Shown here piece by piece: positions 1 to 41,000 of a DNA stretch of 64,000 nt. The translations under genes and the position numbers were made by a program. Below the pieces are notes generated by a model, which ran no database searches, was not told the DNA's origin, and saw only the letters and a list, made by a program, of their open reading frames with translations. Numbering within the stretch: the first letter of the stretch is position 1; the number at the start of each line of letters is the position of its first letter. This DNA comes from Sistotremastrum niveocremeum HHB9708 (Eukaryota; Basidiomycota; Agaricomycetes; Sistotremastrales; Sistotremastraceae): positions 22,928 through 86,927 of the forward strand of contig KV419433.1 of assembly GCA_001630475.1 (NCBI GenBank). The letters are read 5' to 3'.

Positions 1-2026
1 TATTTCCAACTTGGTGACTACCAGTACATCTCCTTCGTGCAAGTGAAGGAGGCTGCGCAAGAAATCGCGCTCGGCCTCGTGGACCTGGGCATTGAGAAGG
101 GGCAGGTTTTCAACATCTATGCGCAAACCAGGTATGACATCTGAACATCATTACATTTGCCTTGGCTGAGACATCCAACCATCCCAGTGTCAACTGGCAG
201 CTCGTCCAACACGCTTGCTGTTCTATTGGGACGGTCATAGCCACCGCTTACGATACCCTCGGCGAGTCGGGCCTCCAACATGCCCTAAATGAACCAGACT
301 GTGCTGGTGTATTCACTAATTCCGACCTACTCCCAACTCTTCTCAATGTCGTCCCAAATACTCCCTCTATCCGCTACATCATCTATGATGGAAAGGCTTC
401 GCAAGCTCATCTTGACAAAATCAAAGCTGTCAGAGATGGTGCCATCACCGTCTTACACCTCGACGAACTCAGGGCTCGTGGCAAAGGCAAGGACGAAGCG
501 CCTCTCAGGGATCGTGCCCCCAAGCGGCCAGACCTTGCCTGTATCATGTACACAAGCGGGTCCACGGGCGCGCCCAAGGGTGTCCTCCTGACACACGCGA
601 ACCTCATATCCGCAGTTGGATCCATTCGCAATCATACCATCGGCCAGAATCTCAAGAGCTCGGATTACTTCCTGGCATTCCTCCCCCTTTCCCACGTCCT
701 CGAGTACATTGTCGAACTCGCCCTGTTCTTCATTGGCGTCACGACTGGCTATGGTCGCGTTAAAACGCTCACCGACGCCTCGGTGCGCAACTGTCTCGGT
801 GACATTCGGGCGTTCAGGCCCACGATCATGGTCGGCGTGCCTGCGGTCTGGGAGTTGATCCGCAAGGGCATCGTCGGCAAAGTCAACAGCTCGGGCGGAC
901 TGAAGAAGTCTGTCTTCAATGGTGCACTCGACTTGAAGAAGTTGGGCATCCCAGGTGTGACGCAATTGATCGACGCTGCAATCTTGAGTCAAGTCCGAGC
1001 GCAGACCGGTGGAAGGCTGCGATTAACCCTCAGCGGTGGAGCAGCTCTGAGTAAAGAGACTCAAGAGTTCCTCACTCTCGCTCTCGTGACTGTTCTTCAA
1101 GGTAAGCTTTCACTGCCGCTTATATGACGTCATGTCGTGTTTCGTGTGCTGACAAACTTGTTATTAGGTTATGGCTTGACCGAATCGTGTGGCATGTGTG
1201 CGATTCTTTCCCCCGAACATTTCGAATATGGAACCGCCGGCGCTCCCGTTGGTTCGATTGAGATCAAGCTTCTCGACGTTCCTGACGCTGGATATTTCGC
1301 TACGAACAAGACGCCTCAAGGCGAAATTCTCATTCGTGGACCTAGTGTCACCTCCGGTTACTTCAAGCGCGACGACCTGAACCAAGATGAGAGCATCTTC
1401 ACCAAAGATGGTTGGTTCCGCACCGGAGATGTCGGCCAATGGAACGCCAACGGAACCTTGAGCATCATCGATCGTATAAAGAACTTGGTGAAGTTGCAGG
1501 GCGGTGAAGTAAGCTCCTATATCTGTCATCACTAAAATATCGAGCTCATCATCATCTTCAGTACATTGCTCTCGAACGTCTCGAATCGACCTACAAGTCA
1601 TGTAACCTCGTCTCCAACATCTGCGTCCACGCCGATACCAACGCCAAACAACCCATCGCTATCGTCATCCCTCACGTCCCGAATCTCCGTCATTACCTCG
1701 CCTCCACCGGTAACAAGAGCATCAACTCCGAAGCCGAAATCCACGAACTGTGCGAGAAGCCTGAGGTGGCTGCTCTCGTGTTGAAGGAGTGCAATGCTGC
1801 AGGCAAGAAAGCCGGCTTCAAGCCTATGGAGATGCTTCAAGCTGTCATCCTCACTCCCGACGAGTGGACACCTGAGAGCGGGCTTGTTACCGCCGCTCAG
1901 AAGATCCAGAGGAAGAAGATCGCTGAGACTTTCTCAAAGGAAATAAAGGTACGAACTTCTCATTGTCGTAGTGATGATGCAGAAATCTAATTTTGCCCGT
2001 AGGCTGCTTACAAGAACCAAGATTAA
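1..2026 (+). CDS. Long-chain acyl-CoA synthetase, 5' end outside window
   Basis: Activates long-chain fatty acids to acyl-CoA through an acyl-AMP intermediate, normally at ER, peroxisome or lipid-droplet membranes (family knowledge). Exons read: 1-131, 188-1101, 1168-1508, 1562-1948 and 2003-2026, giving 598 residues in frame from base 1 to TAA. Seen in the protein: the AMP-binding P-loop YTSGSTGAPKG (around bases 548-580), the GYGLTESCG adenylate motif spanning the 1102-1167 intron, the WFRTGD motif and DRIKNLVKLQGGEY near the C-terminus. The first visible residues, YFQLGDYQYISF, lie about 90 residues into a typical family member, so the start codon is upstream of the window. It converges on QCR2. 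The class (AMP-binding, FAA1/FAA4 type) is secure; the exact paralogue is not. Confidence 0.93.
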
Positions 2027-2423: not shown

Positions 2424-3955
2424 TTAAAGGCCGATTTCGTCTGGGTAAGGGAGATGATGTGTATCGCCAACGGCCACAAACGTGGGCTTTGATTTCAACA
2501 AAGTAGAGGTAGCCTAAAGAAAGATGATCAAAGAGTGAAATAAACCGGGGAGCAGAGTCACGAACTTTGGTAAAGCTCGACGCGTCGACCTTGCTGAATG
2601 AATCTGCGACGCTCAGTAGTGAAGACGCAGCGCCTGAGATGAGCTATGGGGTGTCAAGTCAGTCATGCAACTTTCCGAAGCGAAAAGGGAATCATACTTG
2701 AGGGCCATAGGCGGAAACGAGGCCTTCCCGGCTTTCGGTGGCAGCGGTAGCAAGGAATTTGGCCTTGGCCGATGCAGCAGCCAATTCCTCCTTCTTCACG
2801 TTACCAGCAGCCGCATCTTTCAGTGCCTGGTATGCGACTTTCCCAGCTTCCTTCGCCTTCTCTGCAGTAGGCGCCTGAATGAGCAGACCGAATAAGGCCG
2901 CATCGGAGTAAGGAAGAAGGACAACAGAGGCGGAGGCACCCTCGGGGAGAGTGGCAGCGAGTGGCGAGACACCCTTGGACCATTTCACAGAAGGGACGGT
3001 GGAGAGATGAGATGCGAGGATGGCAAGCTCGGGAGTCACAGCTGACGCGAGGCCGTATCCGATGAACAAGGTCTGCAGAGCGCCATGGGAGTGCTCGGAA
3101 TGCTGCACTCGTGATTCACCACCGAAGTAAGTGGTCTTGGTGGGCGCAGCGATCTTGTTGCCGGTGGTGGCAGGTGCAGAGCCGAGATACTTCTCGACCA
3201 ATTTCTGCAGGGTAGCCTGGTCAATTCCGGTGCCGAGAATTGCGACGTTGTCCTTCGCAAAGGCACTCTCGGCGTAGCTTTTGACGTCTTCGGCGGTGAG
3301 ATCGGATTTTTGGACTGGAATGAAGAGGGGAGATCCGAGGCCGGACCGGAAGGCGAGAGCATGGGCAATCTCGAGAGCTTGATTGGCAGGATCAGAGATA
3401 GCATGCGTCGACTCAGATGCAACTGCCGGGATCACACTCTCTTCGAGCTCATAACGAGTGAAGCGGGTGGACGTCAATGACGAGGCGAGCGCATCAACGA
3501 AGAATGACCTGGATCAAAGTTCGTGATCTGTTATCATAACTGAATGAAAGCTGGTACGTACTCATCGCCGCGAAGGAAGTCTGCCGTATATGCAATGTGT
3601 TCGCGGGTCAATGAAGTGGACAACACTCCTCCATACAACTCGGTTTCACGAACGAGACCTAGTGCCGACCTCTGGCTGGTGTTCTGGAACCAGGAGTGGA
3701 TATATTAGGACGGACGACTCTTCAAGATTGTGTAGTCAGACGTACTTTGAAGGCAAAGTTCTTGAGAACTTGTGCGACCCCAGTCTTGGATTCATATCTC
3801 GGGCCTGCTTTAGCCAAGATGGTGACGCTTGAGGTCGGCTCGCCGTTATCCACAGCTGAGACCTTGTATCCCGCGGCCTCCACTACTGTGGCAAAAGATT
3901 TCTTCGCATTTGAAGAGCTAATTCTTCGCGAAGCCACGCGCGCTGTCGAGAGCAT
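2424..3955 (-). CDS. QCR2: Cytochrome b-c1 complex core subunit 2, mitochondrial
   Basis: Core protein 2 of complex III, a non-catalytic M16-peptidase-fold subunit on the matrix side of the inner mitochondrial membrane. Exons (minus): 3746-3955, 3562-3683, 2698-3508, 2566-2643 and 2424-2513, giving 436 residues, the usual length. The N-terminus MLSTARVASRRISSS is rich in Arg and Ser and has no acidic residues, like a matrix presequence. Family landmarks follow: AVDNGEPTSSVT, KAGPRYE, FAFKNTSQRSALG, RETELYGGVLS and RGDESFFVDALAS. The C-terminus reads KPTFVAVGDTHHLPYPDEIG. There is no HxxEH zinc motif, as expected for this subunit. I chose the ATG at 3955 because an upstream in-frame Met would add about 38 residues of unrelated sequence in front of the presequence. 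The last two introns are small and their acceptors are well formed. Confidence 0.93.
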
Positions 3956-14842: not shown

Positions 14843-16719
14843 TTATGTCGTACGCGATTTCTTCCAGAATCGCGTCGTGTAGTCGTCTTTGAAATCCACC
14901 ATCCGGAGCATTGCGACGTTGCTCGTGACGCTCGAGAACTAATGCACATCATACATCAGATGAGGGAAGAAAGGATGAAGGAGAGAGACGTACCCCGTTA
15001 CCAATGAAAGCCTCTGCCCTCCTCGCAATCTCCATATCAACAGCAACACTCGCCATTTTCTCTTCCCTGCTCTCCATCACCACCTCCGGACTCAAAGTAT
15101 GCACAACATTCTCCCATCCATCCGCGAGAATCATCTCCTTAAATTTATCCAAAAAGTCCAACTGGCCATTGGACATGATGTATACATTCTTCAATGATCC
15201 TTTCGTGTAATCCCGGACTTCGCGGAGCTTTTCAAGCATTTGTTCTTCGGTTGGCCAACAGTGACGGAGGACGTTTGCGTGGTCTTCGTCGGATGGATAG
15301 CCGGATCTGTCGAGTTGGGAGTCGGGGAGGGCAGGAACCATTGCCCAGACGTTATATGGGAGGCCCCATTTAGCGAGATTGTGACAATGACCCTGCATAT
15401 ATGATTAGACAGCGTAAATTTGAGACCGAGTGAATTGGCGTACCTGATAATCTCCTCTCCGGACGGCAATGACGAGGAGACCGGGGATGGTGTACTTCGT
15501 CCGTGGATCGGGCACTTTCCAAGATTCGGGCATCGAGGCCATGCGGTGGACGTAGCGTTCGTAGACCCAGTTAACCATAGGTGCCCACATGAATTCGGTC
15601 AATACGGGTGATTTGGAGATCTCCTCCCAAATCGACACGATCTTGACATTATCCATGAGCCTGAGAAAATAGATTAGACAGAGAATATAAAGAAGGTCGA
15701 ATAAACGCACTTGAAGTCGAAGAGACTCGATCCAGTCATCTCCACACACCTCTCTTTACCCTCAGGATCAGGCTGCGTCAGCCGCTCTACCCACTTGTCG
15801 ATCACGAGAGCTCCTTCATCGTCACCAGGAGCGCCAAGACCCATTTTCTTCCCTTCTATCGCGGTGTTAAATTGTATGCGTTCCGCGCGGGGACAAACTT
15901 GATGCCAGAAGAATTGATTAATGGAACGTGGAGCGCGGTACGTCTCGTTCGTCCAGGGAAAGGGGGCGCCAGCTGCGGGGCCGGCTACCATGTGCGTTAG
16001 AGGATATCCCGGGGCTGGATATCCGATGTCTCGGAATGCGTAGGAGCGGTTGGCACGGTGAGAAAGGTAAGCGTTGAGTATGAGTTCTTCGAGCTGAGTA
16101 TAGTAAAGGTAAGACAACGAGGAAAAATGAACGAGAAAAGTGACTTATTTATTGAAACCCATGTGGATGTATTGATTAAGGAAAGTGATGTAGCGTCCTG
16201 TTCTTCCTTCTGGGAAAGGAAGATCAAGGTTGTGCTGTGGCAGAGCATCCTCGCGTTGACGGACGCATTCTAGACTGAAGTTTTTGGGATGGAAACAGGA
16301 GGCGGGCGCCCAACGGCTCTCTTCGTCGACGTCGACGCTCGGTGGCATAGCTATCGATTCTGCGCGTATAAACTCAGTTTTTCGACCTGCAGACTGATCG
16401 GTGATGTCGTACCTGAAGTGTCGACCTTGCAAAGTATAAGACCAATCATGAGGCCTACTGATAAGAAGCCAAGGCCAATACTCGTCCACATCCATATTCG
16501 ATGTTCAGGAATCTCTGAAAAAGCATCTAGCCGTCGTCTGCTCGTCGACGTCGACAGCTGCTCTCCATTTTCCTGCTCCCGTAAATCGTCGACTGAGGTA
16601 TTTCCGGTGCCTTCCTCAGCGCTGTCTTGCTCGCTAGAATGTCTGGGTAGGAGGTCGTATTTTTCCTCAGCGTGCTCTGAGGGGGGGCCCTTATTGAAGA
16701 GCGACTTGAGAAACGACAT
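14843..16719 (-). CDS. O-fucosyltransferase-like type II membrane protein A
   Basis: Six exons (minus): 16413-16719, 16149-16359, 15711-16097, 15444-15660, 14994-15392 and 14843-14938 (538 residues). A short cytosolic tail (MSFLKSLFNKG) and an acidic linker precede one membrane segment, WTSIGLGFLSVGLMIGLIL, followed by a lumenal domain. Motifs resemble GDP-fucose O-fucosyltransferases: FNNQLEELI near the domain start, IAVRRGD then GHCHN (like the basic RRxD block that binds nucleotide sugar), and IMSNG. The substrate is unknown. The second intron (16098-16148) only restores the frame and the NNQ motif if it begins AT and ends AC; otherwise TAA follows FNK. Two paralogues lie next door. The start MSFLKSLF is shared with copy C. 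The fold family is inference from motifs; the gene structure is firm. Confidence 0.85.
16098..16148 (-). other. AT-AC intron of copy A
   Basis: A 51-base intron beginning ATAAGT and ending TATAC on the minus strand. Joining AAT AA with T CAG gives Asn-Asn-Gln. No GT or GC donor nearby keeps the frame. Confidence 0.75.
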
Positions 16720-17718
16720 GGCGGATGGGGTGGTTAGGGTGAAACGAGGATAAGGAGGAAAATCGCGTCGCCTAATTTTGTCCGGTATTACTGTTTCCTG
16801 TCTCGGAGCGGACTTCGGAGATGGTGTGCCTGAGACGGCCGCACAGACTTTGAATTGGTTTAGCCTTAGACGCTCAGTTCTGGGCTTCAGGGTCTTGTAA
16901 TTTCAGATGGGGATGTTCAACTTGTTTTTCTACTCTACACTATTTGCCAATAGGAGCCCAACTCATTAGAGAGAGGAGTGTACAATGACTAGGTCAAAAT
17001 CTCCTAAGTGGAATTTAATATAATCTTATCAGTCTATTCCGACTCCGAATAATGGACGTTACGTAAGACGTCGATCAGAGTGATCGAAGCAATGCGGATC
17101 GTTTCGGATGCCGGAAGAGCAGAAGTCGGAAGCAACGTTGTCTCGCATCGACCAATGAGCCCTTCTGTGAGAATGGTGCCGCGAGCAAGGTGCAAGTCTA
17201 CCTTGTCAGAATGCCGTCTCCGCATGTCATGGTCGGCTGATTGACTTGAGCGCTGAATTTTCGTCCAAGGCTTCCTTGGCAGCTCGTGCTGCTCGTCAAC
17301 AAGAAGATCGACAGAATGATGGTCTGCATTTTGTTCTTGATTCTTGAATTGGAGACCTATTTAAAACTAGCACCGAAGACAAAGTGGGCCTAACAACAGG
17401 GAGGCCGAGAAACGAAAGATGATCGATGATCTTCGACCCTATTTTAATTGAGTGCGCCGTGCGCCGCGGGCACCAATGCCGCGTATGTACCTGTCATTTC
17501 ACATCCATATCATTGATTTGATGCCGTGAAGTGAAGCCTATTCAAGGTCGAAATGTACTCGAAATATGTGAAGTGAAAGACGATGAATGCGTTAGAAAAC
17601 AAGATAGCAAGAAAGTATACGAACGGAATGATAGCAAAAATAAACACACACACAAATCAACCTCCGTGATACACAGCTTACCTCGACGGGAGCGCCTCAA
17701 AAAGATCAAGAATAACAG
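16720..17718. other. Intergenic region between copies A and B
   Basis: Promoter of copy A and 3' flank of copy B. Only short frames are present. A conserved promoter block next to copy A is listed separately. Confidence 0.5.
16741..16806 (-). promoter_or_regulatory. Promoter blocks shared with copy C
   Basis: On the minus strand CCGAGACAGGAAA (16794-16806) and CTTATCCTCGTTTC (16741-16754) occur in the same order as upstream of copy C (20521-20533 and 20553-20566). The spacing differs. They may be functional elements or simply recent-duplication similarity. Confidence 0.5.
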
Positions 17719-19642
17719 TTACACCCGACGTGATTTCCTCCAAAACCGTGTCGTATAGTCATCCCTATGATCTACCATCCTCAGCATAGCCACATTGCTC
17801 GTCACGCTCGAGAACTAATTCCTTATCAGCAACTAATATATACGAGAATCATGAGAAAAGAGCGTACCCCATTCCCAATAAACGCCTCCGCCCTCCTCGC
17901 GATTTCCATATCAACAGCAACACTGGCAAAGTTCTCTTCCTGCGAAACCATCCTCACCTCCGGACTCAACGTATGAACAACATTCTCCCAACCGTCCTCC
18001 AATAACATCCCCTTAAGATCTTCCAAATATTGTTCATCGCCGTTCGACATGATGTAGACGTTCTTTAATCTCCCGTCTGTATAGTCTCGGACTTGACGCA
18101 TCTTTTCCATCATTTGGGATTCGGAAGGCCAACAGTGTTGCATAAATTTTTCGTGCTCTTCTTTAGAGGGAAAGTCGGATCTGTCGAGTTGGTCTGGGAG
18201 GGTCGGAACCATTGCCCAGAGGTTGAAGGGATAACCGGCCCAAGCGAGATTATGGCAGTGACCCTACAAGATTTATGAGGAAGAGAGGTGAATGTAAGGA
18301 GTGACGTACGGAGAAGTCTCCTCTGCGAATGGCAAGGACGAGAAGACCGGGAATCGTATATTTCGTCTTTGGATCGGGGATCTCCCATGAGTCGGGCATA
18401 GACGACATTCGATGAACGAAACGCTCGTAGACCCAATTGACCATAGGCGACCACATGAACTCCGTCAATACAGGTGACTTTGAGAGTTCCTCCCATATCG
18501 AAACGACCTTCACATTATCCATCAATCTTCACGGCACATCAATCTCGGCACCCCATAAGATATCAATATAACTCACTTGAAATCAAAAAGACTCGAAGAA
18601 GTGATCTCCACACATCTCTCCTTACCCTCCGGATCACTCCTCGTCAATCTCTCAACCCACTTCTCAATCACCAAAGCTCCCTCATCTTCGCCGGGTGCAC
18701 CAAGACCCATCAACTTTCCCTTATTCTGAGTATGTAATTGTACCCTCTCCGCTCTCGGGCAGACTTGATGCCAAAAGAATTGATTCACAAAACGGGGAGC
18801 TTGATATCCATCACTCGTCAGGGGGAATGGTGCACCGGATATCGTCCCGCCGATCATTTGAGAGAGGGGATATGCGGGTGTTGTCGAGCCGTGGGGTTGG
18901 CCTATGTCTCTGAAAGCGTATGAACGATTTGAGCGGTGTGAGAGATATGCGTTTAGGATTAATTCTTCTAGTTGAGTAAGAGCAGGTCAGCGCGGTGCTT
19001 GCGTATATGAGGAGAGAACTTATTTGTTGAAGCCTTGGTGGATGTATTGGTTTAGGAATGTTATGTATCGCCCTGTTCGGCCTTCGGGGAATGGAAGATC
19101 GAGGTTATGTTGAGGGAGGGCATCTTCGCGTTGACGAACGCATTCGATGCTGAAATTCTTTGGATGAAAACAAGATGCCGGTGACCACTGTTCTTCCTCT
19201 TGCTCAGAGATCATCGATGAGGTCGGCAAATTGATATCTATCTCGTCCCGTTCAGCCATTCGGAGAGTAAGAAAGGGGAGGACGTACCATGAGTGTCAAT
19301 ATTACAGACTATGATTCCAACCATCAATCCGAAGGATAAAAATCCCAGCGCGAGACTCGTCCACATCCATATTCGATGGTCAGGAATATCCTCATAAACT
19401 TTGGTCCGCTGCAAGCGAGAGGGCCAGCGCGAGGTTGGATTTAGAGCCCGTAACGTCGACTCAGGATGCTCATCATGTCCCTCGCCCGCGTCCAGGACCT
19501 CATCCTCCTCCGGTGAATCTTCGTCCTCATGTTGTTCAGGTGAATGTCGAAGGAGAAGGTCATATTGCTCCTCCTTATCCTCAGATTCTTCACCTCTCTT
19601 CGTAAAGAGAGACTTTAAGTCGAAGAATGACCGAAAAAGCAT
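17719..19642 (-). CDS. O-fucosyltransferase-like type II membrane protein B
   Basis: Six exons (minus): 19288-19642, 19024-19237, 18577-18975, 18310-18526, 17868-18263 and 17719-17814 (558 residues). It has the same plan as its neighbours: N-tail with KEEQYDLLLRHS, a longer acidic linker, membrane segment WTSLALGFLSFGLMVGIIV, then WSPASCFHPKNFSIEC, RTGRYITFLNQYIHQGFNNQ, RRGDFSGHCHN and IMSNG. Exons 3 to 6 have the same lengths as copy C (399, 217, 396, 96), so B and C share structure most closely. The second intron, 18976-19023, is again AT-AC. The linker is richer in Glu and Asp (HEDEDSPEEDEVLDAGEG) than in A or C, so the cytosolic part is diverging fastest. The ATG at 19642 is preferred over an in-frame one at 19720 because the other copies begin right at the corresponding tail. 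Confidence 0.85.
18976..19023 (-). other. AT-AC intron of copy B
   Basis: A 48-base intron, ATAAGT to CTTAC on the minus strand. It joins AAC AA with T CAA to give Asn-Asn-Gln. Here the acceptor region lacks any suitable AG: the only nearby one would cut inside the Leu-Glu codons. Confidence 0.78.
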
Positions 19643-20607
19643 GGTACATGGGGATGTTATCAGTGAGGGTCGCTGAGCGCCAGGCACGAGACATCTTGAT
19701 TCTTGATGGTATAGGTTCACTAGAACGCTTTCACAAGCATCTGGGGGCCCTCGGAGCGCATCTCGGAGGACCTACTCCTTGCCGGGTTATCCTATTCCCG
19801 GAGTTTGGACCGAATCTGAGGAATCTTCACAAAGTCCGGAACCATGATTTATTTTAGCTGACAGGCGATTTTGAGCCTGCTACAATTTCAAAGTAACGGA
19901 GAGCCGGGCTTCGGAATCAAATGACCGAAGTCTTGCAGTCATAATTAATAAGTATGGCGCGTGCTTGGTTGCTAACAGCTGTGTTCCACGAAACGAAGCT
20001 GAGATGCATGACCATGTTGCATAATATTTTGTACGAAAATCCTGCCACACGTTAGAGCATCACACAAGGATAGGGTTCCAGCAGAGTCAGCTGAGTAGAG
20101 CACATTGCCACTATCTCAAAGGGAAGAGAAGAAGCCTGAAGAGCAACGAAGTTCTCACAGGCTTATCACAAATGGCTGTCAGGACCGCCACTCCTTCTTT
20201 TGCTTCCGTATTCCGAAAGGAACGTTCTATGATCGCGTGCTTACATACTCTTCCGAGTTAGGCTCGGCCGGTGATCGGGGTTTTGCCGCCGTCGGGTTTC
20301 GGGTGTTCCAAAATGAGCATATCAGGTTCCAGATAGGAGAGGCAGTATTCCTAGTCATGAGTAGAAAACCTGCCTATAAGCCTCCTATTTCTTCGTCAAC
20401 ACTAATTTAAAGCCTTGAAGAAGGCAAGATGCCAGTCGGAGTTTCGGAAGTGTCTAGACCGTAGCGCCAAGGCTAAATCCAAACGTGTAATTCGGGGATC
20501 TAAGACATCCGAGAGCCGCTCCGAGACAGGAAATACCGTCAATACTACCGTGCTTATCCTCGTTTCGCCCTCACACCGCCCTAATCGGCCTAACAACCCG
20601 TCCCACC
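19643..20607. other. Divergent promoter region of copies B and C
   Basis: 965 bases between two divergent genes. Only short frames are present; one of 101 codons (20105-20410) has no domain signal. Confidence 0.5.
20521..20566 (+). promoter_or_regulatory. Promoter blocks shared with copy A
   Basis: CCGAGACAGGAAA (20521-20533) and CTTATCCTCGTTTC (20553-20566), 40 to 90 bases before the ATG of copy C, match blocks upstream of copy A. Confidence 0.5.
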
Positions 20608-22487
20608 ATGTCGTTCCTCAAGTCGCTTTTCAAAACGCGCACATCGACAGAGGTCACCGAGGAAAAATATGACCTCCTACCCAGACATTCTACCGACCAA
20701 GACAGCGCTCACGAGGGCAGTGGCGAGGCCTCTGTCGACGATTTACGCCAAGATGAGCAGCATGGAGAGTCTCAGTCGACGTCTAGAGGCCTAAGACGGC
20801 TGAAACTCTTTTCTGATCTTCCTGATCATCGAATATGGATGTGGACGAGCATTGGGCTTGGGTGTTTGTCTGTTGGCTTGACCGTTGGGCTTATTGTATG
20901 CCAGATCAAGACTCCAGGTACGCGTTGATGAACTCTTTTTGCTGCTCGATTGTCTCAATTTTGATGCAGACTCCATTGCCTCTACACCCAGCCCTGTTCT
21001 GAATGAAGAAGAGCGATGGGCGCCCACGTCATGTTTCCATCCCAAAAAATTCAGCATCGAATGCACTCGTCAACGAGAAGACGCTCTCCCTCAGCACAAT
21101 CTCGACCTTCCCTATCCCGAAGGCCGCACAGGTCGCTACATCACATTTCTTAACCAATACATCCATCAAGGCTTCAATAAATAAGTCTTCCTTCTTTATC
21201 TCTTCGTTCTCAGACTGACTTGTCTTCACTCAGCTAGAAGAACTAATACTTAACGCTTACCTTTCTCACCGCTCAAACCGCTCTTACGCATTCAGAGATT
21301 TTGGCAATCCACACGGCACATCAACACCCGCCTACCCCCTAAACTATATGATCGGTGGAACTACTGCCGGTGCCCCCTTTCCCCTGACACAAGATGGATA
21401 TCAAGCTCCACGATTTATTAATCAATATTTTTGGGAACAAGTTTGTCCGCGAGCGGAGCGTGTTCAACTTAATACACAAGTTGAGGGGAAGCTCATGGGC
21501 CTTGGGGCTCCGGGAGAGGATGAAGGTGCACTCGTGATTGATAAATGGGTCGAGAGGTTGACGAGGCCGGATCCTGAGAATAAGGAGAGATGCGTGGAGA
21601 TGACATCATCCAGTCTCTTCGACTTCAAGTGAGTTTATCTTCCTTCACGTCTTAAAAGCGATTTAAGTTGCGGCTTCAGGTTGATGGATAATCTCAAAGT
21701 CGTCTCGATATGGGAAGAACTCTCTAAATCGCCCGTTTTGACGGAGTTCATGTGGTCACCTATGGTCAACTGGGTTTACGAACGTTATGTTCACAGTATG
21801 GCTTCGATGCCCGATACTTGGCAAATCCCTGATCCCAAGACCAAATACACAATCCCAGGTCTTCTCGTCGTCGCCATCCGCAGGGGTGACTTTTCCGTGT
21901 GTACTGTATCTGCCGCTCCATCCCCGTAATCTCATCTATTATTTAGGGGCATTGCCATAACCTTGCTTGGGGTGCTCTCCCTTTCAACTTATGGGCCATG
22001 GTACCCGCACTTCCCGATTCCATGGACCGTTCCGACTTCCCTTCAAAAGAAGACCACGACAACGTCATGCGTCACTGTTGGCCCACTGAGGAACAGATGA
22101 TGGAGAAGATGCGCGAAGTCCGTGATTACACCGGCGGATCGTTGAAGAATGTTTATGTCATGTCGAATGGGAAGGAGGAATATCTTGAGAAGCTCAAGTC
22201 ACTTTTGCTCGAAGATGGATGGGAGAACGTTGTTCATACGCTGAGTCCTGAGGTTAAGATGGTCACTTTCGAGGAAGAGATGGCTAGTGTCGCTGTTGAT
22301 ATGGAGATCGCAAGAAGAGCAGAGGCATTCATCGGCAACGGGGTGCGTTTGCATGTCACGCTTCCTCGCTTCATGCTAACTTATATTATAGTTCTCGAGT
22401 GTGACTAGTAATGTTGCCATGTTGAGGATGATGGACTACAAAGACAACTTCACCACACGCTTCTGGAAGAAGTCGCGTCTCACATAA
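20608..22487 (+). CDS. O-fucosyltransferase-like type II membrane protein C
   Basis: Six exons: 20608-20917, 20970-21180, 21230-21628, 21680-21896, 21947-22342 and 22392-22487 (542 residues). The cytosolic tail of about 75 residues ends in DHRIWMW; the membrane segment is about residues 76-99; FNNQ is at 172-175, RRGD at 374-377, GHCHN directly after it, and VMSNG later. It ends DNFTTRFWKKSR, like its relatives. Expected site: Golgi or ER lumen, adding fucose or a related sugar to protein or glycan (inference). It lies inverted relative to A and B. Its promoter shares two blocks with A, while its exon lengths match B, so the three may have exchanged sequence. The intron at 21181-21229 is AT-AC. 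No truncation or missing motif is seen, so all three copies look active. Confidence 0.87.
21181..21229 (+). other. AT-AC intron of copy C
   Basis: A 49-base intron from ATAAGTC to TTCAC. It joins AAT AA with T CAG to give Asn-Asn-Gln. With a GT start three bases later, TAA would stay in the exon. Confidence 0.78.
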
Positions 22488-30791: not shown

Positions 30792-33700
30792 ATGGAAGAC
30801 CGACCTCACAAGGCGCATCATGCAGCTCAGTCAGGCGCGAAGGCGGAGAAGAAAGCCGACAAGAAAGGGAAAGGGAAGGCGAAGCAGCAGGGATTCAATG
30901 AAAAGGTACGTCCTACTGTTAGGTCTATCATATCCTGGGATTCTGATATCATTTTACTTGGACTCAGGCCTTTGCACCCAAGTCTGGCCGGAGGGCTGAT
31001 AGACAAGGTCGACGAGCGGTTGAAATTGACCAGACGAGGTTGCATGTTCCTCTCGTGAACCGGACACCCGACGACGAGCCTCCACCTGTGATCGTTGCTA
31101 TTGTCGGACCTCCAGGGGTGCGTCTTGATATCTCTGTGCTCATGCAAAAGTTGCTGAGGAAGGTCTGTAGGTTGGCAAGACCACTCTCATAAAGTCGCTT
31201 GTGAAGCGCTACACCAAGCACACCTTGACCGAAGTCAAAGGTCCTATCACGGTTGTGAGCGGAAAGAAGAGACGACTGACATTCGTTGAATGCAACAATG
31301 ATATGAATTCCATGATTGATATCGGGAAGATTGCCGACTTGGTTCTCCTAATGATCGACGGTTCATTCGGTTTCGAAATGGTACGCTACTGTCATCATTC
31401 TTCTACAGCTCTATATTCATAAACATCCTATAGGAAACCTTCGAATTTCTCAATATCCTCCAAGCCCATGGCTTCCCCAAAGTCATCGGCGTCCTAACCC
31501 ACCTCGACCTCATCAAAAAACTCGCAACACAACGTGCCACCAAGAAAGCGCTCAAAAAGCGTTTTTGGACAGAGATCTACCAAGGCGCAAAGCTCTTCTA
31601 CCTCTCCGGCATCCTCAACGGACGTTACCCCGATACCGAAATCCTCAATCTCTCCCGATTCATCAGCGTCATGAAATTCCGACCTCTTGTCTTCCGAAAT
31701 ACACATCCCTATATTCTCGCAGATCGATTGGAGGATATGACTCCTCGACAGGATGTCGTCGCTAATCCGAAGATGGATAGGACAGTGACATTATATGGAT
31801 ATCTTCGTGGGACGAATTTACGAGAGGGCACGGCGGTGCATGTACCTGGAGTTGGGGATCTGAGAGTGAAGAGTGTGAAGGCACTTGGAGATCCTTGTCC
31901 ACTACCGACAACCGAAAGCGAGAAGAGGAGAAAGCTGGCTGATCGACAACGACTTATACATGCCCCTATGAGTGATGTTGGAGGAGTACTCTATGACAAA
32001 GATGCGGTTTACATTAATGTCGGAGGAAGCTTCACGAGAGGGGCGGAAGGAGGTATGTTCTTTCTTGTCATTTACCACGGGCTTGTGCTCATGATGGAAC
32101 AGTACCTCAAGGCGAGGGAGAGCAGATGGTCATGGACCTGCAAGATGTCGATGAAGGGATCGAAGCCGGTATAAAGAAGAGTCAGATAAGGCTCTTCGGG
32201 ACGTCAGAGAAACCCCTCAGTGTTGGCGATGCTCGATTGCCTGGCTCCGATGAGTCTGATGACGAGTCTGAGAGCGACGCGTCTGGCTCAGGTTCCGGAT
32301 CCGAGGACGAAGACGAAGCATCCGACGTCGATTCAGAGCTTGGCGATTCGGACGAGGATGCTGAAGACGACGAAGAAGAGCAGGAAGAGGACCTGGACGA
32401 TCCCTCTCGTGGTGATCGAGGTCGAACTTCTCTGCGTCGTCCGCCACGTTCATTACCATCTCTCCCTTCGACATCAAAATCGAAAGAAGGACGAGAAGAA
32501 GTCGAATATGCCGAGTCGGATGATGATCTTGGAGACGAGAGCGGCCCTTCGAACCGCGTTGATCAGGACGATCATGTTGAGATCGGCGACGACGACGAAG
32601 ATGACGAAGATGAAGATGCTGACGAGGACGAAGATGAAGAGGACGAGGCTCCCCGATGGAAAGCAAATCTTGCACAGAAGTCTCAAGAAGCTTTCAAGCA
32701 ATCGATGAAACGTCGGAAAGTGGACTGGATATCCCTCGTCTACTCTACCGAACTCGACCCTGTCGAAGTCGTTCGACGCGGTACCGGGCACGATATTCCT
32801 TCAGATTCTGATTCAGAGAATGGCGAGGAGGAAGAGGACGAGCTGTTCGTTGTTAAGAAGGATAAGGATGGGACTGGGGTTGGCGAACAGGAGGTCTTGG
32901 ACCAAATCAAAGAGGCTATCGATGAGGAGAGCTTGGAGAGATGGGAAGATGAAGATGTCTTGGATGGGATTCGAGGTCTGTTCATCACCGGCGGTCAAGG
33001 AGGTGATGGTGCTGGCGAAGCGGAGGGAGGCGAGGAAGAAGGAGGGGACTTCGAAGATCTCGAAGCTGGCGACGGTGCCGAGAACGAAGAAGGCGAAGAT
33101 GGAGAATCTTCAGCTCCTACACCAAAACCAACGATGAGCCTCGAGGAATCGCGTGCTGCAGCCCTAGCAGCGAAGAAAGAAATCCTGAAGCGCAAATTCG
33201 ACGAACAGTACGATGATCCCGATGATCCCGATGGAGGGGAGAAAATGGATTTCTACGAGACGAAGAAAGACGAGATGGCTCGACAGCTTGCGCTGAATGC
33301 GAAGGAATTTGAGGGGCTGGATAAGGAGAGCCGATTGATGGTTGAAGGTCATCGACCGGGTTCATACATCCGTATCGAGCTGATGGACGTCCCTTGCGAA
33401 CTCATCGATTCCTTCGATCCTGCTTATCCTCTTCTCGTCGGTGGACTTCTTCCCGCAGAGGAGAAATTCGGCTTCTTACAAGTCAGGATCAAGAGACATC
33501 GATGGTACACCCGGACGTTGAAGACGAATGATCCGTTGATCTTTTCGCTTGGGTGGAGGAGATTCCAGAGTATACCGATATACTCGCTGGATGACCATTC
33601 GATACGGATGCGGATGCTCAAGTATACTCCGGAGCATATGCATTGCTATGCCACCTTCTATGCACCTATATCCCTCCCCAATACCGCCTTCTGCGCCTTC

Positions 33701-34663
33701 ACATCTCTATCCTCCGGAACATCGAATTTCCGAATCAGCGCGACGGGAGTGGTACTTGACGTTGATCGATCGAGTAAGATCGTCAAGAAGATCAAGTTGA
33801 CGGGTTACCCGATGAAGATATTCAAGAACACCGCGTTCATCAAGGATATGTTCAATTCGGCGTTGGAAGTAGCCAAGTTCGAGGGTGCGAATGTAAGGAC
33901 GGTTTCCGGCATTCGAGGGCAGGTCAAGAAGGCGCTGGCGAAGCCTGATGGAGCTTTCAGAGCTACTTTCGAAGATAAGGTTCTTATGAGCGGTACGTGC
34001 TTGGCTATTGTTTGAGATATCAAAGACTGACAAAAAACTGTAGATGTCATATTCTTGAGAGCTTGGTATAGCATCGAGCCGAGGAAGTTTTATAATCCGG
34101 TGACTTCGATGTTGCTGAAAGATAAGGGAGAATGGAAAGGGATGAGATTGACGGGCGCTGTTCGTCGGGACGAGGGGATCAAGACTCCCCTCAACGTCAA
34201 CTCCACGTACAAGGCACGTACAGTCTCGATTTCTTATGCAGGACCGACTGACCCGAGTTTGCAGCCCGTGGAACGGATTGCTCGTCGTTTCAATCCTCTC
34301 AAAATTCCCAAGAAGCTCCAAGAAGCGCTCCCCTACGCGTCGAAACCCAAAGTTATGAAGCCTCAGAAGCGCGAGACATATCTTCAGAAACGAGCCGTGG
34401 TTCTCGAGCCGGAGGAGAAGAAAGCAATTGCACTCATGCAACAGATACGAGCAATCCGGAAAGACCAGGTCGTTAAGCGGAAGGAGAAGAAACATGAGCG
34501 AAATGAGCAGAAGAGAAAAGAGATTGAGAAACGCGAGGAAGGGAGGAAGGAGAAAGAGAAAGAAGAGCGCAAGGAGTACATGAGGGTGGCAGGTATCAAG
34601 AAGAAGAGGGAGGAGGCGCTCGAGAATGGTCAGGGGAGGTCGAAGAGGCGACGGATGAAGTGA
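30792..34663 (+). CDS. BMS1: Ribosome biogenesis GTPase BMS1
   Basis: Nucleolar GTPase of the small-subunit processome; with RCL1 it drives early 18S rRNA processing (family knowledge). Six exons: 30792-30905, 30968-31117, 31171-31380, 31434-32052, 32103-33992 and 34044-34663 (1200 residues, usual length). The N-terminus is a basic tail. The P-loop GPPGVGKTT (about 85-93) is split by the 31118-31170 intron. [14 protein letters not shown] and [16 protein letters not shown] follow, and [12 protein letters not shown] serves as a TKxD-like base motif. The AARP2CN-type region is followed by long acidic tracts (bases 32240-32650 and 33000-33110), then the C-terminal elongation-factor-like half with [17 protein letters not shown] and [17 protein letters not shown]. 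The tail is a Lys/Glu/Arg coil. It is head-to-tail with NUP192. Confidence 0.96.
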
Positions 34664-35085: not shown

Positions 35086-38000
35086 ATGAACTCTCTCGAC
35101 GCGCTCTACAACTCACTACGCGGACTCGAGCCTACATCCCCAGGCTCGTACCTCCAAGATGTTCATTTCGAACTCATAACGGCTACCCAAACGCTTCGAT
35201 CACTGTTTGATATTCCGCCTCGAAATCCTGCCGAAGAAAGAGAGATCAAATCAGGTGAATGCTATTGTAACATCTTATATATCCCAGCTGACTTCTTTGC
35301 AGGAAAGGCGAAAATTGGGGACCGAACACTAGTCCTGAATGGCGCATTCATCTCAGAAGTCCTTTTCCTCGCCCAGCATCTCGACATATCAGAGCTCCGT
35401 GTCGCAGAGCTGGTGGATACAATCATGTGCACAGATCCGAATCTGATTCCAGAGGACCGGATCGAGAAAGCGATTGCCCTCTATCACTCTCGTCGAGAAA
35501 CTTTGGTTGCATGTCTGCATCTGATTGTGCAGGGAGTGTTTGCAGAAGAAGTTGATGATCGACCGAGGATATTGGGAGAATATGCGAGGAATCAACTGTT
35601 CGGCGATTTAGTTCCGTTGTCAGAAGGGAGGCGAGGCGCATTGGGTGAAAAGATCCTGGAGGAATGCAAGCGGGTCGAGGCAACCATGAAGAGGGTTGCT
35701 GATGCCATCACAAATGCCAAGTCAAGAACTGACCTTCAAGGTAACGAATTACAGTCGCTCTCATTGCTAGATACTGACAGACCCCTACCCAGGTGGCACA
35801 TTGGGCCGAACAGCCCTAGAACTTCGACATAACTACCTTATCCAAGAACGATATTCCCTCACATTCCTCCTGTATCTATGCGCTCAGTCTCGCCTGCTCA
35901 CCGGCATTGACATCGTGAAACTCATCTCTACCCTCGCGGAAAACACTTCCACTTCGAGCGAAACTAGCCCGTACATCCTCTGTACGATCCTGAAGGCCCT
36001 CGATCCTCATGCTCCCGCGCCAAATCCTCTCTTCACCGACCCCGTCTTTATCAAACTGGTCTCACAGCAGCTGAACTTCGGTCCACAAGCTCCTGGCGCA
36101 GGAGCAGCCGCTGGAAGAGAATGGAAATCTCCCAAATCTCTTCCCACTAAGTCTCTCCTTCAAATGAAGTGGGCTCTGTTCGGTCGAGCCGCCCTTGCAG
36201 CCAATGTACGACCTGGGAATGGCTTCACGGAAGAATCTATCGAAGGCTCAATAAAACTCGCCATCGAGAATGATGCCTTCACCGCTCTTCTCGCCCTTGT
36301 CTTCCTCACCGAGTCGTCCCAAAAAAGCAAATTCGGACGAGACCCTCTTAGCTATGCCTTCGCATTGCGCTCGGAGATGAACGAGAATGGATTGACGGCC
36401 AGTATCGGAAGACGAATCAGACCGGAATTCCGAGGTTTCGTGCTCGAGACTGTCCGAGATGCATGTCTGGACCTTATTGGCGATGCGCCGACGATCTTGA
36501 GGAGCGTTCGGATCCGACAGGAAGATCTGCTCGGTGCATCAGCTCACCGCCCCCCACACCATGTTCCATCTGGTACCACCTCATCATCATCGAATCCTCA
36601 ACCTCGAACCGATATCTCCATATTCTTCATTCTACTCGGAACACTCTACACTCTCCTCCCACCAGATTCGGCTTTGGACTTCTTTACACCTCTCGACCCG
36701 AAACAATATTCTCCTCGCGAGGCGAATTTGAATATTTTCTTGAAATGGGCAAGCGACGTCAGTGATTGGGACATGAGAAGAGCGATGTTCGAGATGATTG
36801 CTGGACTGTGTAATGGGAAAAATGTTGCTGAGATGGGCTATAATCTTCTTGCGGGTGGAGGTCAAGGCGTGCTACCTATGGCTGCCCCTGGCATTGTCGG
36901 TATTGGGGCATTGGGCGGATCGGTGGGCGGAGAGGGACTCGCGGGCAGTGGAGGGCTGAGTTGGAAGGCCCTTTTCAGGACGCTCGATCAACTTGCGAGC
37001 AGACTACCCAACCCTCGTAGTAGTGCTCAACATCAACACCAGCAAGCTCAACAACATCAACAGAGATTCCCTAGTTCTCGACCTCCACCCCATGCTCCCA
37101 CCCAGGCACAGGGTGCACCACCTTCTCCGCAGGAGATCTTCCTCCTTTCTTCCTTCCTCTCAATCCTTCGAACGATCGTCTCTTATGCCCCTCGAGCCAG
37201 GTTGGCTCTTCACAATCTCACTTCTCTCCGCGCGATCTCCTCGATCGTGACCCTCATCCCATGCCACATACCTCTCGAACTCAAAGGAGTCCTCTTCGCA
37301 ACTCTCAGTGAATTCTGCAAGGCCGGTGCAGGAGTGGCTGGTGTAGAGATATGCAAGGAGGTTTGGAGTGCATTGGAAGAAATAGAGGTTTTAGGCGGTG
37401 AGGAGTACTCGGGTGTCAACGATGCTCGCGGAGGATTGTTCGGCGGGTTCGGAGGGATAGGTGGAATCGGAGGAGCTGTACAGGTCAAGAGCGGTGTATC
37501 TTTTGAACTCGATGACGTGGAGGTTCCTGGAAAGCGATATCCGTCCACGTACGGCTTCATTACCCTCCTGAATTCCCTCATTCACACACCGAAATCTATA
37601 CCATTATCCAAACGACTTCTCACATACGAGCCCACGCACACTGTCCCTGATAATCTCGGTGCTCCAAGGAGACCCCCGGGTATTGGACCCTATGTGAAAT
37701 TTGTGATTCACAAAGTCCTCTTACCCACATTGAACGAGAGGAATCCCAGGGAGTATGCGGACACTGCGGAAAAGTGGATGATGATCGATGAGTGTCTCTG
37801 TTTCTTGGAGAATTGTCTTGCTTCGTACCCTCTCGACGAGTTACTGCATCTCGCGGATACTGATATGACAGTTATCAGAAGAGCCGTGGCGCATCCCGGA
37901 TTTGAGGTTCTCCATCAGCTTCTGACGGATTCCCCACTGGTGAACGCTCTCCTCAACTATCTTCATCAAGGAGCATCGTTCCTCGAATCTTCCTCATCGT

Positions 38001-41000
38001 CTTCAAATGGAGCGGCTCCGTCTCCTGAGTTCGAGAAGACAATGTTGCGAGTGCTGAGAATCACGCACCGAACCCTCGAAATCCAAAGCATCTTCATTGA
38101 GGTCCTCACTCCCCTGCTCTCCGACATCGATACATCGTCTTTACTTCCTACGTCCTCCGGTCCATTTATGTCAAGTTCAATCACTGGACTCGATCAGCGA
38201 TTGGTTTGGAGCCCTGATTGCGTCATTTCCATTGGCCTGTGTATCACCTATGGATCGGAAGAAGAACTAGTTTTGATGGGCATCCGAACCCTCGCAATCC
38301 TTAGCGCAAGTCCGTCTTGGACCGCTATGGATCAAGTCAATATAGTTGGTTCTCGAAGACACGTCAATCGACTCGCAGTTGCACTGGAAAGGAATGCGGA
38401 TTCTCAGCTCATTCTTAACGCATTCGTGAGGATGTTGAATGAAGATGTCATCGGATTCGTATCCGAACCTGATGTTCAGGCTACAACCGGAGCTGGAGCG
38501 CCTATCGAAGATCTTTATCGGCCTTCATTGATCGAGGCTATCCGATGGGAAATATTGGATCTCCTGTTGGATAATACCAGCGCGAACAGACAAGGCCCCA
38601 ACCTAGGACATTTGTTGCTTGGTTTCATCGAGAGTGGGAACGAGCTCATACTTCAAGATCCGAGAGAAGCAGGAGCGAGGATATCATGCTTGCATATCAT
38701 CCTGAACCTGCTTAATCGTGGTGTTCCTCGTGTATCTGGCGCTCTGTCGAAGTCCACGCATCCGGTCGTGGAACTCGACACCAGACCGCTGTACGAAACA
38801 AATCCTGCTCTGGCGGAGAAATGTTATAGGTTGATCTATCAACTCTGTACTCAGGATCTTACCCGCGAGACAACGATGCGGTATCTCCGTACTCGAGAGA
38901 ACTTCTTCGTACGACATTTGTCAGCCATGCCTTCAGCCATCCCCGTCCCCCCGTCCTCTGAAGACGGAGCGATGGGCCAGATTCATTATTCGGATCAGAC
39001 CCAGGTGTCCACATCCTGCGAAACAATCGTGGCTTTCCTGAGATTGAGATCATGGGTAGTTGAGGCTGTCGCACAAGAAGTTCATCTTCTCACGCGCGCT
39101 GGACAAGTCAACCGGGTGCAGGAGATTTTAGAGATCCTCTTCGGTTTGAGCTCGGACCGATCTGCTGAAGAAGAGGAAGAAATCGATGAGTATGGAATGA
39201 TGGGCGGGTTCAATCCCTCGACCTTTGATCCTGGTCAATCGTTGACTAAGATTGTCGAATTATTCTATTCGTTCGATTTCGACTGGGAAGAATCTTACGA
39301 AGTTACTCAAGTTCCTATACAGTTCTATTCTGGCATTAATCTCCTTGCATCCATCCGGACGGATTATGCAGGCTGCGAGCTTGTCGACCGGGATACTCTC
39401 ATACAGATGCTCCAGGAAGCGAAGAATCAGCTTCAGCCCCAGCTCACCACGGATGCGCAGAAGACGCAATTGGAAATCGAGACGTCGTATATCCTTGCCA
39501 GCTGCACGATTGAGAATCATCGAAGAGAGATTCAGCATGCGAAAGGTGTCGGGCTGGACTCTTGGAGACGGCTCCTGGATATTTGCCTTGCCAAATGCTT
39601 CGATCGCTTACCACACGACCGTCGGGAGTCGGTTTTGATTGACCTGCTCCGAGCTCTTCCTCCCACTATTCGTTCAGGGGCTTTATCTGCGCAGGCAACG
39701 GTCTCGCTATCGGAGACTATTGTGTCGCTGATGACGAAACTGCGGGCGGACCGATATCAGCAAGTGATAGTACAGTCACCCGTCGACGATTCTTACGCGG
39801 CGACGCTCCCCACTGAAAACCTTCTCACTCTCCTCAAAAGCATTCTTGAATGCATCTTGGACAATAGTCAGCTGGAACTCGTCCGAGGAAACCTTTATGC
39901 TGCACTGATCAACTTCCTTAATCTTGTTGACTCAAGTCGTCGGCAAACACCCTCAAGTGCCGACTCGCATGCGTCAATTGCGAGATTGAATATGTCGCAG
40001 ACATTGGATGACGTTTCTTCCTTCAATGGGGACTCGAGCTCTCTCGATCTTTCATTCAGCCAGCGCCCCTCCAAAGCTCCTCGTTCAGATCTGGAGTCCG
40101 GAACATTGGAAGTCCTCAGCATGGTGGTGGAAAAGCTCATGCAGGTTGTAGCCCGAGACGCTATCGACGGAACCGAGGTTTGGAGATCTGTAGCCTTAAC
40201 CTTTCTCGATTCCCTCATCAGGATCTCGAGATCCGAGAAGTCGCACCCGGTCCTGACAACGCTCGCAAAGCAGGGTGCTTTGTACACGCTCGTTCGTGGG
40301 ATCAAAGATATCGACGCGGATATCGAGATGCTCTATGATCCTGATCCAAGTCAGTGTTTCACGCTATCTGCACACTCTTGCGCCTGACCATGACTTCAGT
40401 GAACCTCAACTCCCTCTATGTCTATGAGGCACGTATGGCGTTGCTTACACGAATTGCTCAGACTCGACAAGGTGCCGAGCGCTTAGTGGACTCGCGGCTG
40501 TTCCCTGTCCTGACGCAATGCGAATTCATTGACGCTAAGCCTGAAGCAGATCGAAATATACTTGGTGAGGTCCATCTCCTCCCACGTTTCTATCACTCAT
40601 TGTGTGCTAGATGCGTCGAGTTTCCTGCCAAACGCCCTTCATCGCTACCATCAGCTCCTGTTGCCGGCGCTCCAGCTCATCGACAGCGTCCTTGCAACCC
40701 TTGGCTCCTCCTCTAAGCAGGCATCCAAACAGGCGCGTTGCCCAACCAGTCCGATCTATTCACACTAATATACAGACAGGCCTTCGACTTCCTCATTGCT
40801 CACCGTGAAACGATCACCATCCTCCTAAAGGACAACAGTTCCGAAATATCCTTGGCTTCATTCCAGGATCGACAACTCCTCGTCTCCATCTGCTCATATG
40901 TTTTCCCAAGCATCGAACGCACGAAATTGGTGGGTTCCTCATGTGATTTGCGCCTTGGGCGCATAGGCGCCGTCTCTGATGGAGGTAATATATTGACAGG

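Follow-up and report, generated by a model that had tools for sequence, protein, structure and literature searches.

How do three related genes read past a stop codon that all of them carry in frame at the same place? The question is raised by three O-fucosyltransferase-like genes, here called copies 1, 2 and 3, of the basidiomycete Sistotremastrum niveocremeum HHB9708. They lie within a 64-kb stretch of DNA (the window), part of contig C40 of a 34.7-Mb genome in 111 contigs. Each gene has six exons and five introns, and each, when read straight on from its second exon, encodes GFN and then meets an in-frame TAA (GFNK-stop). The second intron of these genes is very probably a U2-type AT-AC intron, which would be older than the split between the three copies and a fourth one located elsewhere in the genome.

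In copies 1, 2 and 3 the second intron starts with ATAAGT, ends with AC and lies in phase 2. The introns and the codons that run into them are as follows:

16098..16148, minus strand: AT-AC intron of copy 1, ATAAGTCAC...TTACTATAC, 51 nt, phase 2
18976..19023, minus strand: AT-AC intron of copy 2, ATAAGTTCTC...TGCTCTTAC, 48 nt, phase 2 (phase from exon lengths)
21181..21229, plus strand: AT-AC intron of copy 3, ATAAGTCTTCC...TTGTCTTCAC, 49 nt, phase 2
16145..16153, minus strand: codons AAT AAA TAA of copy 1, the in-frame TAA overlapping the donor ATAAGT
19020..19028, minus strand: codons AAC AAA TAA of copy 2, the in-frame TAA overlapping the donor ATAAGT
21176..21184, plus strand: codons AAT AAA TAA of copy 3, the in-frame TAA overlapping the donor ATAAGT

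A first-pass annotation had placed the three introns at exactly these positions, all as ATAAGT...AC, with a TAA just past the apparent exon end, and this TAA is indeed in frame in all three copies. Excision of ATAAGT...AC restores GFNNQLEEL in each of them, including the Asn-Asn-Gln which that annotation expected (predicted peptide across the junction: GFNNQLEELILNAYLSHR). The coding sequences of copies 1, 2 and 3 are then open over 1617, 1677 and 1629 nt, respectively, all divisible by three as had been claimed, and the encoded proteins share 70–76% identity. The remaining twelve introns of the three genes are GT-AG introns of 46–55 nt.

A genome search with the copy 3 protein revealed a fourth AT-AC copy, L039, on contig C3; over the domain, the two proteins share 50% identity. 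At the corresponding codon, the sequence of L039 is TTC AAT AA/ATAAGTC...CTGACCTCTGTTTAC/C CAG (slashes mark the intron ends), and removal of its 50-nt AT-AC intron gives GFNNQLQEL. The split Asn codon is AAC in L039 and AAT in copies 1–3. The Asn is thus kept, the synonymous difference falling on the first base of the exon that follows. Four paralogues at a greater distance (L040, L041, L042 and L043) lack an intron at this position, and their G-W-N-N or G-L-N-N is uninterrupted. Three of them are included in a seven-protein alignment (A1), from which L042 was left out, and these are 36–38% identical to copy 3. The G-x-N-N motif is invariant in all eight paralogues, four of which read NN uninterrupted.

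L040, L041 and L042 (contigs C9, C12 and C85) carry a GT-AG intron five codons past the second Asn of GxNN, in phase 2, which is also the phase of the AT-AC intron of the other clade. This position may reflect either a separate gain or a slide by 15 nt.

The junction was also assessed free of assumptions about splice signals. All in-frame, stop-free excisions of at least 30 nt within a set range, whatever their end letters, were scored against the uninterrupted paralogues, giving 1178, 643, 643 and 648 excisions in the four copies. L043 is uninterrupted over the whole stretch (GLNNILQE), and with it as the reference the AT-AC excision was the sole best in all four copies. L040, L041 and L042 extend only four residues beyond NN before their own intron; in all 12 comparisons with these three, the top excision started from that same AT donor. 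The donor thus rests on all four paralogue comparisons, and the acceptor on L043 and the agreement of the four copies. For copies 1–3 the best GT-AG or GC-AG excision ranked 236th or lower in every one of 12 comparisons.

To place the intron in a spliceosome class, a set of 27 family introns (23 GT-AG, four AT-AC) was compared, hand-chosen from homology: 15 from copies 1–3 and 12 from L039–L043. For the latter five genes the aligner listed 39 introns, of which 12 were kept (one AT-AC, 11 GT-AG) and 27 dropped, 20 of these lying in badly aligned N-terminal parts and seven in gapped stretches of the conserved part. In the hand-chosen set a G at +5 is present in 23/23 GT-AG and 4/4 AT-AC introns, while AAGT at +3 to +6 occurs in 4/4 AT-AC versus 1/23 GT-AG introns. 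The donor hexamer ATAAGT is identical in all four AT-AC introns (extended, it reads ATAAGTC or ATAAGTT), while at introns 3, 4 and 5 these genes differ in their donors. A hexamer frozen in this way agrees with a U2-type donor in which the first G is gone and the remaining letters must be kept. A branch-like motif lies 11–12 nt from the 3' end, CTGAC in three of the four (11 nt before the end in copies 2 and 3) and CTTAC in copy 1 (12 nt); by hand count, a similar motif is found at 11–14 nt in 15 of the 23 GT-AG introns of the family and in none of the other eight.

The exons on both sides bear the marks of coding sequence. Past the junction, silent differences (pS) among copies 1–3 amount to 0.70–0.80 and amino acid-changing differences (pN) to 0.11–0.15; between these copies and L039 the values are 0.81–0.87 and 0.33–0.34. 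Before the junction pS is 0.58–0.82 and pN 0.17–0.33. Judged by these values, the exons past the junction are under purifying selection and the downstream part is translated; with pN so far below pS there, the TAA would therefore not be the real end of the protein. Because silent change is high, recent duplication is an unlikely source of the letters conserved in the intron. Over its whole length the AT-AC intron is slightly more alike among copies (identity 0.53–0.66) than the three other homologous introns compared (0.47–0.62).

The pattern is also rare in the sequence scanned, which comprised 81 kb on both strands: the window and the loci L039, L069 and L070, L039 having been chosen as a known carrier of the intron. 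Candidates had to combine a donor ATRNGT and an acceptor YAC with a branch-like motif, and to be flanked on either side by 50 or more open codons. Five donor sites were found: those of the four AT-AC introns, plus a second possible donor located within the copy 1 site. By the same rules, the numbers of sites for five control end-pairs were 0, 0, 0, 1 and 0. GTRNGY...YAG gave 14 donor sites. The AT-AC pattern at these sites is more than chance.

Taken with the fourth copy, the uninterrupted paralogues, the +5 G, the branch-like signals shared with ordinary introns and the lack of U12, U11 or U6atac matches over cut-off, these data support both AT-AC splicing and the U2 class. The latter had been proposed in the first-pass annotation from the donor being ATAAGT and not ATATCC, and appears to hold at the level of sequence.

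Several other explanations of the in-frame TAA have to be weighed. The real intron could be a GT-AG intron shifted by 4 nt at both ends (TAA/GT...CAG/CTN), in which case the TAA would stay in frame in an mRNA of equal length and the protein would end after about 170–190 amino acids. Matching letters are indeed present in copies 1, 3 and L039, where the AT is followed at 4 nt by a GT and the AC at 4 nt by a CAG. In copy 2, however, the intron is followed by TCAA, so that CAA stands instead of CAG and the acceptor is missing at the homologous place. Moreover, none of the shifted donors (GTCACT, GTTCTC, GTCTTC, GTCTAC) shows the +5 G that all 23 homology-placed GT-AG introns of the family possess, and the strong constraint on the downstream exons also speaks against this register, which we regard as very improbable.

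Removal by the minor spliceosome, as a U12-type AT-AC intron, would agree with the AT-AC ends and with the distance of 11–12 nt from branch to end, which fits the optimum of 11–13 nt given for U12-type introns (PMC3584512). In addition, a U12-like pattern was matched 11 times versus five for a reversed control, a weak excess, the chance number by hand estimate being about eight. The U12 consensus is ATATCC for the donor and CCTTAAC for the branch (PMC3033335). ATAAGT is three letters off this donor, none of the four introns matches the longer RTATCCTT, their CTGAC or CTTAC is not CCTTAAC, and the U12 branch CCTTRAC is absent from all four. The position of the branch-like motif does not set these introns apart either, as 15 of the 23 GT-AG introns of the family have such a motif at 11–14 nt. 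In one survey, Basidiomycota are reported to have yielded no convincing minor introns (PMC10639083). All this makes a U12-type intron highly unlikely.

The genome was also searched for the small nuclear RNAs (snRNAs) of both spliceosomes, the first-pass annotation having suggested a check for U11/U12 components. Whole-genome searches for U12 and U11 gave no match, but they are weak evidence, since U1, the positive control, likewise gave no genome match to its Rfam model even at an E-value of 1. U6atac gave ten matches, none over the cut-off (best E 0.83) and five of them at U6 genes. Of the minor spliceosome, the searches covered U11, U12 and U6atac. The missing U1 match is perhaps due to a diverged fungal U1 or to an oversight in the first look of the search.

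For U2 and U6 eight and five matches over the cut-off were obtained, respectively. All eight scored U2 matches are on contig C6 between 389996 and 858216 (L049–L056), occupying both strands of a stretch of about 470 kb; the one at 715697–715810 is shorter. The five U6 matches have equal scores (C5:651944-652058, C9:877088-877202, C30:409823-409937, C37:213327-213441 and C37:216660-216774), and each spans 115 bases compared with the 105 positions of the model. The two on C37 point apart, with about 3.2 kb between them.

Ordinary introns at other positions form a further alternative. According to the first-pass annotation, the frame is not kept by any GT-AG or GC-AG intron, which is false as written: in copies 1, 2 and 3 there are three, four and ten such excisions, respectively (one GT-AG and two GC-AG in copy 1, four GC-AG in copy 2, two GT-AG and eight GC-AG in copy 3). 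Nevertheless, they are not credible, because all of them delete conserved residues, a +5 G is absent from all nine of their donors, and the fourth copy, L039, has no in-frame GT-AG or GC-AG excision within the range tested. Among them is a set of GY-AG introns, homologous and in frame in all three window copies, with the donor at TGG/GTTTCAAT in copy 1 and AAG/GCTTCAA in copies 2 and 3 and the end at GAAG/AA. The frame would be kept and GFNNQLE lost. This set lacks the +5 G, would remove the G, N and N that are invariant in 8/8 paralogues, has no counterpart in L039 within the range tested and includes no excision ranked above 236th, so that we consider it extremely unlikely. Decaying pseudogenes, or readthrough of the TAA with no splicing at this place, would account for the TAA being in frame in all four copies, yet hardly deserve credence, as pN is well under pS on both sides of the junction and inserts of 51, 48, 49 and 50 nt, if read through, would also put copy 3 and L039 out of frame.

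A number of observations weigh against the U2-type AT-AC intron, in addition to the limited force of the snRNA searches and the excess of U12-like patterns described above. The four copies are homologous and so are not four independent origins. For the same reason the Fisher p of 0.0003 for AAGT is overstated, as it treats four related introns as independent. In the comparisons with L040–L042 the AT-AC excision ranks first in only three of 12, all in copy 2, another acceptor scoring higher in the other nine. Among the seven introns dropped from the conserved part three have a +5 G and four do not, which with them included makes 26/30. The aligner also put three AT-AC introns into badly aligned N-terminal stretches, and these were dropped. 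Finally, an open reading frame (ORF) scan free of motifs was too noisy for an independent test of the +5 G, yielding 70 GT donor sites, 27 of them with +5 G and mostly due to chance; the power of the AT-AC scan therefore comes from the donor motif and the controls.

In the U2-type reading, an intron starting with AT and ending with AC would most likely be removed by the ordinary major spliceosome and recognized by U1, U2 and U6. ATAAGT would keep the full potential for pairing with U1 from +2 to +6, making up for the lost G at +1; the pairing was judged on the known U1 sequence, U1 not having been found in this genome. The branch site would be the fungal CTGAC (CTTAC in copy 1), 11–12 nt before the end. 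In the second step of splicing the first and the last base of an intron interact, and here the terminal C may act with the initial A in the manner of the two end Gs of ordinary introns. The ancestor was presumably a GT-AG intron that switched to AT-AC once, before copies 1–3 split from L039, and the AT-AC state may have been kept because its reversal needs both ends to be changed together.

A bolder proposal is that the AT-AC ends form a regulated gate, in which a slow AT-AC reaction would set the amount of full-length enzyme, a state kept since before the duplications and possibly across many mushroom species; we consider it unlikely. A hidden GT-AG register 4 nt off, with the stop codon and an mRNA of equal length, exists in copies 1, 3 and L039 and not in copy 2, and its donors have no +5 G. 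Regulated switching between the two registers is possible but unlikely.

The gene models of the three copies, with the AT-AC intron removed, are:

14843..16719, minus strand: copy 1 gene, 6 exons, 538 aa
16719-16413, 16359-16149, 16097-15711, 15660-15444, 15392-14994, 14938-14843, minus strand: exons of copy 1
17719..19642, minus strand: copy 2 gene, 6 exons, 558 aa
19642-19288, 19237-19024, 18975-18577, 18526-18310, 18263-17868, 17814-17719, minus strand: exons of copy 2
20608..22487, plus strand: copy 3 gene, 6 exons, 542 aa
20608-20917, 20970-21180, 21230-21628, 21680-21896, 21947-22342, 22392-22487, plus strand: exons of copy 3

Copies 2 and 3 are arranged head to head, with 965 bp separating their start codons (19643-20607), possibly a shared promoter region. 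Ten other ORFs of the window were scanned; five had no Pfam match at E 0.001, and the other five matched as follows:

138-1124, plus strand: AMP-binding enzyme
2695-3513, minus strand: peptidase M16 C-terminal
32018-34012, plus strand: Tsr1/BMS1 C-terminal
35771-40384, plus strand: Nup192
56575-57318, minus strand: BCS1-type ATPase lid

The copy 1 protein has a single N-terminal hydrophobic stretch, judged by eye, followed by an O-FucT-like domain. In copy 3 the C-terminal part matches Pfam O-FucT (PF10250) at E 3.1e-6 to 4.7e-6, with a score of 26.9–27.5 bits, below the curated cut-off of 31.5. All seven proteins of alignment A1 match PF10250 at E up to 0.1, and in this they resemble the GDP-fucose protein O-fucosyltransferases such as POFUT1 and POFUT2; they differ in that copy 3 stays under the Pfam cut-off and the PDB matches are weak (POFUT2 and POFUT1 at E 0.17–0.47, beside Toll-like receptor chains at 0.58–0.65, a chance level). 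O-FucT proteins have an N-terminal donor-site loop of the Gly-x-Asn-Asn type. The first-pass annotation regarded FNNQ as the motif expected at the start of such a domain; its NN is backed by the paralogues of the same genome, but the Pfam and PDB matches do not reach that part, and no alignment of the G-x-N-N part to a known O-fucosyltransferase was obtained from either source. On sequence similarity the label 'fucosyltransferase-like' seems fair. Two further collections, neither of which can settle conservation among fungi, were scanned for relatives: viral contigs gave two stretches fitting the pattern and prokaryote genome contigs, scanned with alignment A1, gave 57, none confirmed in either.

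The textbook case of a U2-dependent AT-AC intron ('AT-AC type II') is intron 21 of SCN4A, whose donor is ATAAGT. The intron described here resembles that class in its AT and AC ends, its U1-like AAGT donor and its ordinary branch site, and differs in being a predicted fungal intron of 48–51 nt that is kept in a duplicated family. AT-AC introns spliced by the major spliceosome are an established class (PMC7072748, PMC2831892), and splicing of SCN4A intron 21 needs the major-type spliceosome (PMC2831892). In Caenorhabditis elegans, which seems to lack U11, U12 and U4atac, 59 AT-AC introns were found, at least 42 of them thought to be real and taken as U2-processed (PMC3033335); they are comparable in their likely U2 processing, in another organism and other genes.

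Among fungi, the share of AT-AC introns was 0.019% in an annotation survey (PMC7072748) and 0.03% in the predicted models of three species (PMC4084796). Ganoderma lingzhi has 13 (0.014%), one of which, verified by PCR and Sanger sequencing, lies where the automatic model of its gene had been broken (PMC11590231), and in Coriolopsis trogii AT-AC (0.0235%) was among five end-pair types amplified for validation (PMC13395996). The introns of both species share their end-pair with ours and likewise come from mushroom-forming fungi; the available text of the two reports mentions neither this gene family nor an AT-AC intron kept across paralogues (PMC11590231, PMC13395996). Since the confirmed G. lingzhi intron lies in a gene with a zf-C4pol domain, two zf-C4pol loci were examined here, and the ORF-based scan, which requires 50 or more open codons on either side of an intron, gave no AT-AC intron in them. 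No account of an AT-AC intron kept across the present family was found in the literature available, supplementary files not covered.

AT-AC introns in mushrooms are thus already known, and what is added here is one kept at a single codon through old duplications, with a frozen donor. Such introns make up, according to the available reports, about 0.01–0.03% of fungal introns, and automatic gene models can break at them, as in the one G. lingzhi gene. The copies described also provide corrected gene models for a fungal glycosyltransferase-like family. A single genome lets one AT-AC intron be followed through several gene duplications, and so offers a natural series in which to ask what keeps the two ends coupled, why the rest of the donor freezes after the loss of its first G and whether reversion is blocked.

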